Notes under the pieces: model-generated | The model's input: the letters and a program-made list of their open reading frames with translations, nothing else | Told to the model about the DNA's origin: nothing | The model's database searches: none | Position numbers and translations under genes: made by a program | Assembly: GCA_026645935.1 (NCBI GenBank) | Contig: JAPKMP010000004.1 | Span: 1 to 44,046 of the forward strand | Length of the DNA: 44,046 bases | Source of the DNA: Candidatus Villigracilaceae bacterium | Lineage (GTDB): Bacteria; Chloroflexota; Anaerolineae; Anaerolineales; Villigracilaceae | Reading direction: 5' to 3' | In this document: one piece after another, positions 1,611-5,123 of the stretch | How the letters are laid out: every line of letters begins with the position of its first letter | Numbering within the stretch: position 1 is the stretch's first letter

Positions 1611-3014
1611 ATGACAACCCTTCTCATCAAAAACGCTTATATCGTCACCATGGACGACCATCAGCGGGAAATTCCCGAGGGTGGTCTTTTTATTCGCGAC
1701 GGCTTCATCGAGCAGGTTGGAGCGACGAGCGAACTCCCCGCCACCGCCGATGAAGTGCTCGACCTTAAAGGGCATGTCATCCTGCCGGGCTTGGTCAATA
1801 CCCATCATCACTTCTACCAAACCCTGACGCGCGCTGTCCCAGCCGCGCAGGATGCCAACCTCTTCAACTGGCTCAAGACCCTCTATCCCATTTGGGCGCG
1901 TCTGCAACCCGACGATATTTTTGTTTCGACTCAAACCGCCCTGGCGGAACTTGCCCTCTCGGGCTGTACCACAGCCTCAGACCATCTCTATCTCTACCCG
2001 AACGGCTCGAAACTCGACGATGAGATTGCCGCAGCCCTCGAACTTGGACTACGCCTTCACGCTTCCCGCGGCTCGATGTCGCTCGGCGAATCCCAGGGCG
2101 GGCTCCCCCCCGACAGCGTGGTGGACACCGAAGAGAACATCCTCAAAGACTCGCAGCGCCTCATAGAAAAATATCACGACGCCAAACCCGGCTCGATGAC
2201 TCAAGTTGTGCTTGCGCCCTGCTCGCCGTTCAGCGTCACATCGGATCTAATGAAACAATCCGCCAAACTTGCGCGACAATATGGTGTCCATCTCCACACC
2301 CATTTAGCTGAAACCGAAGACGAAGAACAATTCTGTATGCAGATGTTCGGTCATCGTCCTGTTGGGTACATGCAGGAAGTGGACTGGGTCGGCGATGATG
2401 TCTGGTTTGCGCACGCGGTCTGGGTGAATGACGAAGAGATTCAAGTCTTTGCCAAACATAACTGCGGCGTGGCGCACTGTCCCACCTCGAACATGCGGTT
2501 GGCTTCAGGCATCGCTCCGGTCAAGGAATATCGCAAAGCAGGCGTCAACGTCGGCTTGGGTGTGGACGGCTCCGCTTCCAACGACGGCTCGCATCTCCTT
2601 GCAGAAGTGCGAAATGCCATGCTCGTCTCCCGTGTCAAGGAAGGACTGACGGGCTATTCCCTCACCTCTAACCCCTCTCCCTCGGGGAGAGGGGAAGGGG
2701 TGAGGGAATTGATGACAGCGCGTGAAGCGTTGCATTTGGGCACGCGCGGCGGTGCTGCTGTTTTAGGACGTAATGACATTGGTTCCCTTGAGCCGGGCAA
2801 ATGTGCCGACTTCTTTGCTGTGAACTTAAACAAACTTGGTTATGCCGGCATGCACGACCCCGTTTCGGCAATTGTCTTTGGTCAATCCTTCAACGTGGAA
2901 TACACCTTCGTCGGCGGCAAAGCCGTCGTCAAAGAAGGGCAACTCGCGACGGTGGATCAACATAAATTGATCGAGAAGCATAACAAAGCGGCAAAACGCC
3001 TGCTGGCTGGATGA
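1611..3014 (+). CDS. 8-oxoguanine/guanine deaminase-like amidohydrolase
   Basis: A 467-residue amidohydrolase-superfamily enzyme of the branch containing 8-oxoguanine deaminase, hydroxyatrazine hydrolases and the E. coli SsnA protein. Metal and catalytic motifs are NTHHH (about residues 63-67), HTHLAE (about 228), FAHAVW (about 264) and GVDGSASND (about 318). GLVNTHHHFYQ is characteristic of the 8-oxoguanine deaminase group, which converts the base to urate; activity on guanine or another aminopurine is equally possible. Its position at the head of a purine island supports a purine substrate. Residues about 349-366 are a foreign-looking insertion encoded by a 52-base palindrome, just before the conserved MTAREAL segment. 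There is no ribosome binding site. The stop overlaps the next start by four bases (ATGA). Confidence 0.8.
   Translation: MTTLLIKNAYIVTMDDHQREIPEGGLFIRDGFIEQVGATSELPATADEVLDLKGHVILPGLVNTHHHFYQTLTRAVPAAQDANLFNWLKTLYPIWARLQPDDIFVSTQTALAELALSGCTTASDHLYLYPNGSKLDDEIAAALELGLRLHASRGSMSLGESQGGLPPDSVVDTEENILKDSQRLIEKYHDAKPGSMTQVVLAPCSPFSVTSDLMKQSAKLARQYGVHLHTHLAETEDEEQFCMQMFGHRPVGYMQEVDWVGDDVWFAHAVWVNDEEIQVFAKHNCGVAHCPTSNMRLASGIAPVKEYRKAGVNVGLGVDGSASNDGSHLLAEVRNAMLVSRVKEGLTGYSLTSNPSPSGRGEGVRELMTAREALHLGTRGGAAVLGRNDIGSLEPGKCADFFAVNLNKLGYAGMHDPVSAIVFGQSFNVEYTFVGGKAVVKEGQLATVDQHKLIEKHNKAAKRLLAG
2657..2708. repeat. Palindromic element inserted in frame in the deaminase gene
   Basis: Outer arms TTCCCTCACC (2657-2666) and GGTGAGGGAA (2699-2708) pair perfectly. 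Inner arms CCCCTCTCCC (2672-2681) and GGGAGAGGGG (2685-2694) also pair perfectly around a three-base loop. It is translated as a Ser/Pro/Gly/Arg-rich stretch without breaking the frame. A related element lies inside the P-type ATPase gene (34724-34778) and shares CCTCACC, five variable bases, then CCCCTCT. This is the layout of a mobile palindromic repeat able to land inside genes. Confidence 0.75.
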
Positions 3015-3332: not shown

Positions 3333-5123
3333 ATGTCATCATCCACCAAACTGACCGCCGCCCTCGTCGATGTTGCCATGGGACGCGCCCACGCCGATCT
3401 CGTTGTCAAAAGCGGAAAATGGGTGAGCGTGCAATCCGGCGAGATCATCCCGAACATCGACATTGCCGTTGTTCAGGGACATATCGCTTATGTCGGGCGC
3501 GATGCGGGTCATACCATCGGCAAAAAAACCAAAGTCATCGATGCGAAAGGGAAGTATCTCGTCCCCGGCTTGCTCGATGGACATATGCACGTCGAATCGG
3601 GCATGGTCACTGTGACGGAGTTCGTCCGCGCGGTGGCTGTGCGCGGCACCACTGGAATGTTCATCGACCCGCATGAGATCGCAAACGTCTTCGGTCTCAA
3701 AGGCGTCAAGTTGATGGTGGATGAAGCTCAGAAGCAGCCCATTCATGTCTGGGTGCAGATGCCGTCCTGTGTTCCGTCCGCGCCGGGACTTGAGACCCCC
3801 GGTTCTTCCATCGGTCCCAAAGAGGTCACCATCGCGATGAAGTGGAAAGGCCTCATCGGCTTGGGCGAAATGATGAACTTCCCCGGCGTCTTCATGAGCG
3901 ACAAGAAGATGCTCGATGAAATGTCCGCGACCCATGCAGCGGGGAAAACCATCGGCGGACATTATGCTTCGCCCGATCTCGGCCTGCCCTTCCATGGCTA
4001 CGTCGCGGGCGGCGCGGAGGATGACCACGAAGGCACACGCATGGAGGACGCCATTGCGCGCGTCCGCCAGGGGATGAAGGCGATGCTTCGCTACGGTTCG
4101 GCATGGTTCGATGTCGCGGCGCAGGTCAAAGCCATCACCGAGAAGAAACTGGATTCACGACACTTCCTGCTTGTTACGGATGACTCACACGCCGCCACCC
4201 TGACCGAAGAGGGCCACATGGACCGGGTCCTTCGCCACGCTGTCAGCGAGGGATTGAATCCAATGACGGCGATCCAAATGATGACCATCAACACCGCCGA
4301 GCATTTCGGCCTGAGCAAAGAGATGGGTATGATCGCTCCCGGCAGGTGGGCCGATATCGTGCTCGTCGAAGATCTGATGAACTTCAAAGCCGATATGGTC
4401 ATTGCGAAAGGTCAGGTCATTGCCGAGACCGGCGAATGGCAGGTCAAGCTGCCGGTGACGAAATATCCCAAAACGGTCACCAACTCGGTTCATCTCAAGC
4501 GAAAGCTCACAGCGGAAGATTTTGTCCTTCGGACAAGAGCCGCTCACGGCGCGGAGGTCGAGGCGCATGTCATCGGGGTGATCGAGAACCAGGCGCCGAC
4601 CCGTCATCTGAAGATGAAAGTAAAAGCTGTGGATGGCGAAGTCAAAGCGGATTTGAGAAACGACCTGGCGAAGATCGCATTGGTGGAGCGACATCGCGGC
4701 ACGGGCAGGGTCGTCGTGGGTCTGACCAGCGGTTTTGGTTTTTCTAGAAAATGCGCCATCGGTTCGACGGTTGCGCATGACAGCCATCACATGATCGTGG
4801 TCGGTACGGATGAAGAAAGCATGGCGATCGCCGCAAATGAACTGGCAAAATGCGGCGGCGGTCAGATCGTGGTGTTGGACGGCAAGGTGATCGGGAAGGT
4901 CGAATTCCCCATCGCTGGCTTGATGTCAAACGAGCGCGCGGATATTGTCGCGAAAAAGGCCGCCAGCGTGCTCGATGGTTTCAAGATGTGCGGCAGTGAG
5001 TTGAACAACCCGAACATGCAATTAAGTTTGCTGGGATTGGTCGTCATCCCTGAGTTGAGAATTTCCGACAAAGGGCTTGTGGATGTGACCCGCTTCGATT
5101 TCGTGCCGGTGCTGGAAGATTGA
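3333..5123 (+). CDS. ade: Adenine deaminase
   Basis: A 596-residue enzyme converting adenine to hypoxanthine and ammonia; the length matches bacterial adenine deaminase (about 580-600). Visible motifs are PGLLDGHMHVES (about 78-89, metal ligands H84 and H86), DPHEIANVFG (about 112-121), LVTDDSHA (D283, D284, H286) and the family-specific C-terminal domain with AHDSHHMIVVGT. The start at 3333 has GGAG upstream; a longer frame reading back to 3294 overlaps the preceding gene and adds an unconserved piece. It supplies hypoxanthine, the usual substrate of the molybdenum hydroxylase encoded at the end of the island. The family uses Mn or Fe, so it may depend on the metal importer further downstream. 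Confidence 0.92.
   Translation: MSSSTKLTAALVDVAMGRAHADLVVKSGKWVSVQSGEIIPNIDIAVVQGHIAYVGRDAGHTIGKKTKVIDAKGKYLVPGLLDGHMHVESGMVTVTEFVRAVAVRGTTGMFIDPHEIANVFGLKGVKLMVDEAQKQPIHVWVQMPSCVPSAPGLETPGSSIGPKEVTIAMKWKGLIGLGEMMNFPGVFMSDKKMLDEMSATHAAGKTIGGHYASPDLGLPFHGYVAGGAEDDHEGTRMEDAIARVRQGMKAMLRYGSAWFDVAAQVKAITEKKLDSRHFLLVTDDSHAATLTEEGHMDRVLRHAVSEGLNPMTAIQMMTINTAEHFGLSKEMGMIAPGRWADIVLVEDLMNFKADMVIAKGQVIAETGEWQVKLPVTKYPKTVTNSVHLKRKLTAEDFVLRTRAAHGAEVEAHVIGVIENQAPTRHLKMKVKAVDGEVKADLRNDLAKIALVERHRGTGRVVVGLTSGFGFSRKCAIGSTVAHDSHHMIVVGTDEESMAIAANELAKCGGGQIVVLDGKVIGKVEFPIAGLMSNERADIVAKKAASVLDGFKMCGSELNNPNMQLSLLGLVVIPELRISDKGLVDVTRFDFVPVLED

Follow-up and report, generated by a model that had tools for sequence, protein, structure and literature searches.

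Near the start of the window (the whole stretch of DNA analysed, 44,046 nucleotides, from a draft genome, here called G000, that comprises 4.33 Mb in 70 contigs) lies an open reading frame of 467 amino acids that matches NF006055/PRK08203.1 of NCBIfam, 8-oxoguanine deaminase, over residues 2-466 (E 5e-204, 678 bits against a cut-off of 532). Its best named matches are in metagenome-assembled genomes of Anaerolineales and other Chloroflexi. An adenine deaminase (TIGR01178) follows at positions 3333-5123 of the window, making this a purine-deaminase neighbourhood. The first of the two genes contains a palindrome (Table 1) with the layout TTCCCTCACC-TCTAA-CCCCTCTCCC-TCG-GGGAGAGGGG-AAGG-GGTGAGGGAA, that is, two nested perfect 10-bp stems with a three-base loop, which is translated in frame and supplies about residues 350-366 of the protein. 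An earlier note on this DNA had described a double-stem palindrome read through in frame by the deaminase; the description is accurate, and the RNA fold of positions 2640-2730 is predicted at -54.3 kcal/mol against -31.75 +/- 3.33 for shuffled sequences (z -6.77, none of 200 shuffles as low). In an AlphaFold2 model of the deaminase (mean pLDDT 91.3) the only segment below 50 comprises residues 354-362, which belong to the loop joining helix 329-346 to helix 370-385; the loop that holds the element is modelled as disordered.

Table 1. Features of the deaminase gene and its palindrome (positions in the window)
Feature	Position	Strand	Basis
8-oxoguanine deaminase gene, 467 aa, host of the element	1611..3014	+	match to NF006055/PRK08203.1
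Entire double-stem palindrome, including TT/AA ends	2657..2708	.	sequence; fold z -6.77
48-base element, delimited against empty orthologues; relatives have 24 native bases there	2659..2706	.	DNA alignment with 15 relatives; site compared in 11 genomes
Left outer arm TTCCCTCACC, tag side	2657..2666	+	pairs with 2699-2708
Left inner arm CCCCTCTCCC	2672..2681	+	
Loop TCG; varies among genomic copies	2682..2684	+	
Right inner arm GGGAGAGGGG	2685..2694	+	
Right outer arm GGTGAGGGAA	2699..2708	+	

An alignment of 44 deaminases from G000 and related genomes, 34 of them from the same genus, divides at this site. Five sequences, all among the 34, have the insert, and in the remaining 39 its place is taken by SLSNDPNRKL-like residues or by other forms seen in outgroups; the segment is likewise missing from 3hpa and 7ww2, relatives of solved structure. 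The expectation of the earlier note that homologues would be without the insertion is thus borne out. Two carriers have an element of identical type (peptide SLTSNPSPSGRGEGVREL in G000 and G001), while three have a diverged element at the same site (SASPSPSGGGQGGG in G033 and G034, SATPSPSGSPKGVLREGQGEGE in G012). A second set, of 80 named deaminase loci, which may overlap with these genomes and one of which (L193) ends at the site, were judged on protein: L152 has a similar Pro/Ser/Gly-rich insert and L184 one of another kind. In a single-gene tree, G000 pairs with G032 (0.76), G001 with G031 (0.96) and G034 with G020 (0.99); none of these three sisters has the insert. With the carriers scattered in this way, several gains or losses are required. 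The elements of G000 and G001 agree at 47 of 48 bases, against 94 and 86 in the 120-base flanks and 732 in the 900 bases upstream (binomial p about 2e-5 at the pooled flank rate and 6e-4 at the upstream rate). Since the elements are more alike than the DNA adjoining them, both were probably acquired recently, either independently or through a very short transfer.

At the base level, 48 bases (2659-2706) replace 24 native bases of the SLSNDPNRKL region. The earlier note had put the addition at about 17 residues; about 17 are indeed encoded by the element, but with 24 native bases gone the net gain is eight. At the left edge of the site the native TTCCCT is the same as the element's own arm, and no target-site duplication is visible at this junction.

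The element is one of many. A search of the whole G000 genome for the core CCCCTCTCCC-N0-30-GGGAGAGGGG finds it in 15 places, the arms being constant by construction of the search and the loops varying, and a reversed control pattern in none. R1, a covariance model built from 15 copies, gives 119 matches on both strands of G000 at E<=1 among the best 150 of 994 candidates scored, and these merge into 60 places at E<=1 and 54 at E<=0.01. Copies are built on a hairpin that bears, on one or both sides, a CCCTCACCCC-like tag; composite dimers also occur, and the elements of the family are CT-rich and 48 to roughly 95 bp long. Over 61 genomes (G000 and relatives), with both strands searched and the best 93 candidates taken per genome, R1 matches at E<=0.001 were obtained in 47, and counts range between 0 and 96 per genome. 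That the segment in the deaminase might instead be a native, vertically inherited loop, palindromic by chance or for an RNA function, would suit the stable hairpin, but it is scarcely credible given the absence of the segment from 39 of the 44 aligned sequences and the recurrence of the palindrome in about 60 places of the genome; nor does any Rfam family reach its gathering score in the window.

All 54 places at E<=0.01 are contained in 53 loci of G000. Profile scans covered 30 open reading frames from these loci together with the deaminase and GlyS, and at 21 of the 53 loci profile matches or orthologues on either side place the element in frame within a gene; the remaining 32 are probable, intergenic or undecided. 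At 14 of the 21, one profile runs across the element: in the deaminase, SecA, AlaRS, GatB, an amidohydrolase, a GFO/IDH/MocA oxidoreductase, an alpha-amylase, Elp3, 4-hydroxyproline epimerase, RlmD, an R2-like oxidase, RlmN and two mannosyltransferases. Domains of one reading frame lie on either side of it at six more (UvrD, an ABC transporter, an SHMT-GcvT frame, the methionine synthase MetH, a second UvrD-like helicase and a heparinase-like protein), and in GlyS the frame is evident from an alignment of orthologues. The SHMT-GcvT frame, 1063 amino acids long (L104, G000:C55:48865-52918), has a palindrome copy between its two parts and is possibly a fusion made by the element. The likening, in the earlier note, of the palindrome to protein-coding palindromic elements therefore stands, as does its forecast of further genomic copies: this is a dispersed repeat, in frame in unrelated genes at no fewer than 21 loci, and with both in-frame copies and empty orthologues found, the family belongs, as a functional kind, among the protein-coding palindromic elements. 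Replacement of native bases and the link to a nuclease, described below, had escaped that otherwise supported interpretation.

One of the copies in G000 led to a nuclease domain embedded in MetH. The methionine synthase of this genome is a frame of 1330 amino acids with DUF559 (PF04480) at residues 698-803, in the order pterin domain, palindrome, DUF559, double palindrome, B12 domain, all in frame and with no stop codon in the nuclease domain. At E<=0.1 a single solved relative was found, the endonuclease-like protein 3hrl (E 6.5e-22). Among 31 aligned MetH sequences the unit is present in six, which were picked because they carry DUF559: G000, G011, G033, G034, G012 and, from another family, G042. 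The other 25 have short linkers or other small inserts, palindrome-like and without nuclease in G008 and G047. A seventh carrier, G097, has MetH domains on both sides of DUF559. Palindrome-peptide-flanked DUF559 also shares a reading frame with PIG-L (L276), an APH-family domain (L280) and DUF1156 (L343, L345), the host-domain profiles matching on the N-terminal side only. An intein was considered for the MetH unit and rejected: Pfam scans of two of the MetH frames (eight families each, E<=1e-5) contain no splicing (Hint) domain.

The MetH nucleases form one clade (0.87) in a tree built without 18 of the loci, and a later DUF559 tree places L276 and L280 in one group with them (84), the order within it being open. 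The nuclease of G012 shares 86% identity with its counterparts in G033 and G034, against 82.5 and 83.7% for the MetH flanks. Of MetH and DUF559, MetH is the better conserved in 13 of 15 pairs, so only two pairs suggest that the unit passed from one lineage to another. DUF559 units also lie in or beside genes of DNA methyltransferase type (DUF1156, BREX PglX) at L343 and L345 and at L367 and L368, on plasmids of Synechocystis sp. B12, and such genes may be favoured hosts. Two loci have clusters of DUF559 matches, many of them fragments: five at L304 (G000:C14:12500-20500) and a dozen or more at L305 (G017:C1:962000-981000). The clusters span 4-15 kb, with a modest 0.75 and 0.58 palindromes per kb, and resemble a graveyard or an array.

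Certain loops are occupied repeatedly. In GlyS, palindrome-like peptides (judged by residues) are found at one loop in 4 of 30 aligned sequences, others carrying different insertions there, and the alignment of 31 MetH sequences shows two linkers that have been occupied more than once. Around MetH residue 115 the peptides of G034, G012 and G042 are palindrome-like, and other sequences have repeat peptides of unrelated kinds. G000 also holds a second, partial metH (L399, G000:C48:1-3168), a paralogue or the product of strain mixture, whose protein is about 91-92% identical to the first; in the linker where the first has the nuclease unit it carries palindromes encoding PVGTGLAPVQ peptides. From the REP literature, we take these repeats to be GTAG-like. 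Target-site specificity as the cause of repeated hits was dropped, since GTAG-like repeats use the MetH linker too and repeated hits on one loop can be due to tolerance alone.

In the loci sampled, the palindromes are physically linked to DUF559 genes. PF04480 is present in 48 of the 61 relatives and in 56 of 121 genomes drawn from the phylum. Only loci with full flanks were counted, 25 of 33 among the relatives and 23 of 27 in the phylum sample, where a few are of the same family. Among the relatives, 24 of the 25 loci have stems of at least 10 within 300 bp of DUF559, compared with 183 of 1120 control pseudo-loci; for the phylum sample the figure is 20 of 23. Their density is 2.93 per kb near DUF559 and 0.20 far from it (3.48 and 0.20 in the phylum sample). 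With classes of CT-rich palindrome that were named after looking at DUF559 flanks, one lies within 400 bp at 69 of 71 DUF559 loci and at 2 of 58 control gene flanks (29 deaminase and 29 GlyS loci, carriers included). The 71 are mostly one best match per genome, with the fragments L286-L289 of G000 and the duplicate L363 left out and five loci in MetH added; being the best-scoring ones, they are mostly intact genes. Palindromes flank 38 of them on both sides, and 31 have the CTCTCC type of the window.

R1 offers a comparison free of hindsight, because the model was built before DUF559 was noticed. Counting matches of about 20 bits or more anywhere in a locus, for DUF559 and control loci alike, and leaving out L351 and L363, R1 matches 36 of 65 DUF559 loci (11 of 33 and 25 of 32) and 3 of 58 controls (p 5e-10). 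These controls are 53 gene loci and five Y1 loci, with the known carriers L073, L075, L086, L223, L228, L245 and L249 omitted; if all seven are counted as matches, the controls become 10 of 65 and p is 3e-6. Flanked DUF559 units occur across Chloroflexota and on plasmids of Cyanobacteria, Alphaproteobacteria and Deinococcota, seven plasmid loci being among the 71 (two in Synechocystis, two in Azospirillum and one each in Deinococcus, Sphingobium and Sphingomonas), all of them flanked.

The type of palindrome follows the nuclease tree. On the DUF559 tree the four types CTCTCC, CCCCA, CTTCCC and CTCCCC require 20 changes, against 38.8 when shuffled (0 of 200 shuffles as low); taken singly, CTCTCC, CCCCA and CTTCCC cluster (0 of 500 shuffles each) and CTCCCC does not clearly do so (88 of 500), in tests that are inflated by near-copies and on a tree with many forks unresolved. 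The CTTCCC group spans several families on long branches. In G016, nine CCCCA-type palindromes were found by pattern; two lie no more than 160 bp from the two DUF559 matches of this genome, and the other seven are on other contigs or far off. Copy number also goes with the nuclease. Over 61 genomes the DUF559 and R1 counts are correlated (Spearman 0.52, p 2e-5; 0.42, p 0.009 within the same genus), and the six MetH-nuclease carriers have a median of 77 R1 matches against nine in the other 55 (p 2e-4; p 9e-4 within the genus), p-values that are optimistic because the genomes are related. G033 has a single DUF559 match, in MetH, and 94 R1 matches. R1 matches are present in 42 of 48 genomes with DUF559 and in 5 of 13 without, and this last group implies that copies outlive the nuclease or do without it, or that the drafts miss it.

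Those five genomes are also what one would expect if the palindromes were an independent mobile repeat on which DUF559 genes land or which they gather, the nuclease not being the mover. The low palindrome density of the clusters of DUF559 fragments (0.58-0.75 per kb) agrees with this, as does the fact that the solo palindromes of G000, at 60 places, far exceed its eight DUF559 matches. Hitch-hiking of this kind has less to say about why palindrome type tracks nuclease clade, why the MetH-nuclease carriers hold far more copies and why flanked units recur in several phyla, and we consider it unlikely, if far from negligible.

A different enzyme could also be at work. REPs moved by a Y1 transposase (RAYT, or IS200-like) are likewise small tagged hairpins with dimers and intragenic copies, as a survey describes them (PMC3733652). 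There are five Y1_Tnp matches in G000, one of which is separated by 323 bp from a palindrome copy within a uvrD-like gene (L042, G000:C22). However, a CT-rich palindrome is found within 400 bp of only one of the five Y1 genes, and there on one side, the other four having none; the 15 aligned copies have CCCTCACCCC/GGGGTGAGGG-like tags and no GTAG or CGTC; and the strings CCCTC and GAGGG are absent from the main text, figures aside, of the REP survey (PMC3733652). We regard a Y1-driven origin as very improbable.

A second junction bears on how the elements enter DNA. In the DUF1156 pair L345 and L343, whose longest aligned stretch is 91.5% identical, an 89-base double palindrome in L345 stands for 56 bases in L343, again with no target-site duplication; two junctions have been read in all. 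Break repair accounts more readily than a DDE transposase for replacement without duplication, and a MITE of a DDE transposon was rejected as a candidate on the same grounds, the duplication being lacking at both the deaminase and the L345/L343 junctions. Spread with no dedicated enzyme, through template switching, microhomology-based illegitimate recombination or gene conversion between short G/C-rich palindromes, would equally replace native bases without duplicating the target, and the native TTCCCT that matches the element's arm at the left edge is in keeping with it. Such spread leaves the DUF559 flanks and their clade-specific types unexplained, which makes it quite improbable in our estimation.

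With dispersed copies in frame in genes, orthologues both occupied and empty, and native bases replaced (24 and 56), we put at about 0.6 the probability that the palindrome in the deaminase is a non-autonomous member of a nuclease-linked family of CT-rich palindromes which the nuclease presumably moves. The autonomous form would be a gene for a DUF559 nuclease (Vsr-like, PD-(D/E)XK) between palindromes of the same kind. We infer that the nuclease cuts DNA and that, during repair, DNA of the element is copied or captured into the break, a homing-like process with a short deletion of the target. Survivors would be only those insertions that preserve the frame and lie in tolerant loops, which, we propose, is why the same loops are hit repeatedly. 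In G000 the likeliest source of activity would be the nuclease embedded in MetH, whose flanks are of the CTCTCC type of the window.

A broader proposal, to which we give an even chance, is that DUF559 is the engine of a widespread and undescribed kind of prokaryotic mobile DNA. It would consist of palindrome-nuclease-palindrome units and far commoner solo palindromes, which would propagate through cutting and repair, enter essential genes in frame and sometimes persist as a permanent domain of a host enzyme, for instance methionine synthase. In-frame palindromic elements are best known from Rickettsia and, as intragenic REPs, from scattered species, as far as excerpts of the two sources tell (PMC10969869, PMC3733652). 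The family described here has the same lifestyle in Chloroflexota and supplies a candidate enzyme, the repeat type agreeing with the enzyme's clade, so that how such elements move becomes directly testable. If the proposal is true, it provides a role for DUF559, which Pfam lists as a family without known function, it explains the Ser/Pro/Gly/Arg-rich insertions (PSPSGRGEG-like) in the proteins studied here, and it means that essential enzymes carry an entire nuclease domain brought by mobile DNA.

In open-licence papers of PubMed Central, the corpus searched, with subscription papers and preprints outside it, we found no description of a link between DUF559 and palindromes. Judged by titles and the beginnings of abstracts, none of the DUF559 papers there concerns palindromes or mobility; the element's peptide strings have no occurrence among the matches listed, whose titles are on other subjects; and searches combining Vsr, homing and palindromes, or on in-frame palindromic repeats, or on very short patch repair with repeats, brought up no such element among the matches listed. 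The Caulobacter protein VsrA (CCNA_02930) has the same Pfam domain as the nuclease here, DUF559, and is described, in excerpts of one paper, as Vsr-like, as tied to the DNA damage response in cells without a cytosine methyltransferase and as proposed for mismatch repair linked to methylation (PMC12907096). The word 'homing' does not occur in the searched text of that paper, and 'mobile' occurs three times, the one occurrence checked being in another context (PMC12907096).

Several known systems resemble the family in part. Rickettsia palindromic elements (RPEs), about 150 bp long and found in Rickettsia (PMC10969869), are, according to excerpts of the sources, also palindromic repeats that lie in frame in unrelated genes and add a peptide to the product (PMC10969869, PMC3733652). 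Compared with RPEs as described, the elements here are shorter (48 to about 95 bp), CT-rich, found in Anaerolineales, substituted for native bases and accompanied by a form that encodes a nuclease. We know of no autonomous partner or engine for RPEs. The GC clusters and double-hairpin elements of fungal mitochondrial DNA are short, G/C-rich hairpins that spread and in some cases lie in frame in genes (VAR1); they differ in being mitochondrial, and to our knowledge they have no DUF559 partner.

Homing endonucleases include Vsr-related ones (the I-Bth0305I family). With homing endonuclease elements and inteins the MetH unit shares a nuclease gene in frame in a conserved gene and a patchy distribution; it differs from them in having no splicing domain among the Pfam matches, its nuclease staying in the host frame, and in having palindromic ends and dispersed solo palindromes. 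Features in common with REPs and REPINs with their RAYTs, as the survey presents them, are these: small hairpins, single or as dimers, of many types, together with a flanked enzyme gene that matches them in type, and sometimes within genes (PMC3733652). REPs inside genes are indeed known from that survey, including a GTAG family of Chloroflexi, with UvrD/REP helicase among the targets (PMC3733652). What sets the present family apart from REPs and REPINs is the absence of a GTAG or CGTC tag from the 15 aligned copies and the identity of its partner, a PD-(D/E)XK Vsr-like nuclease in place of a Y1 transposase.
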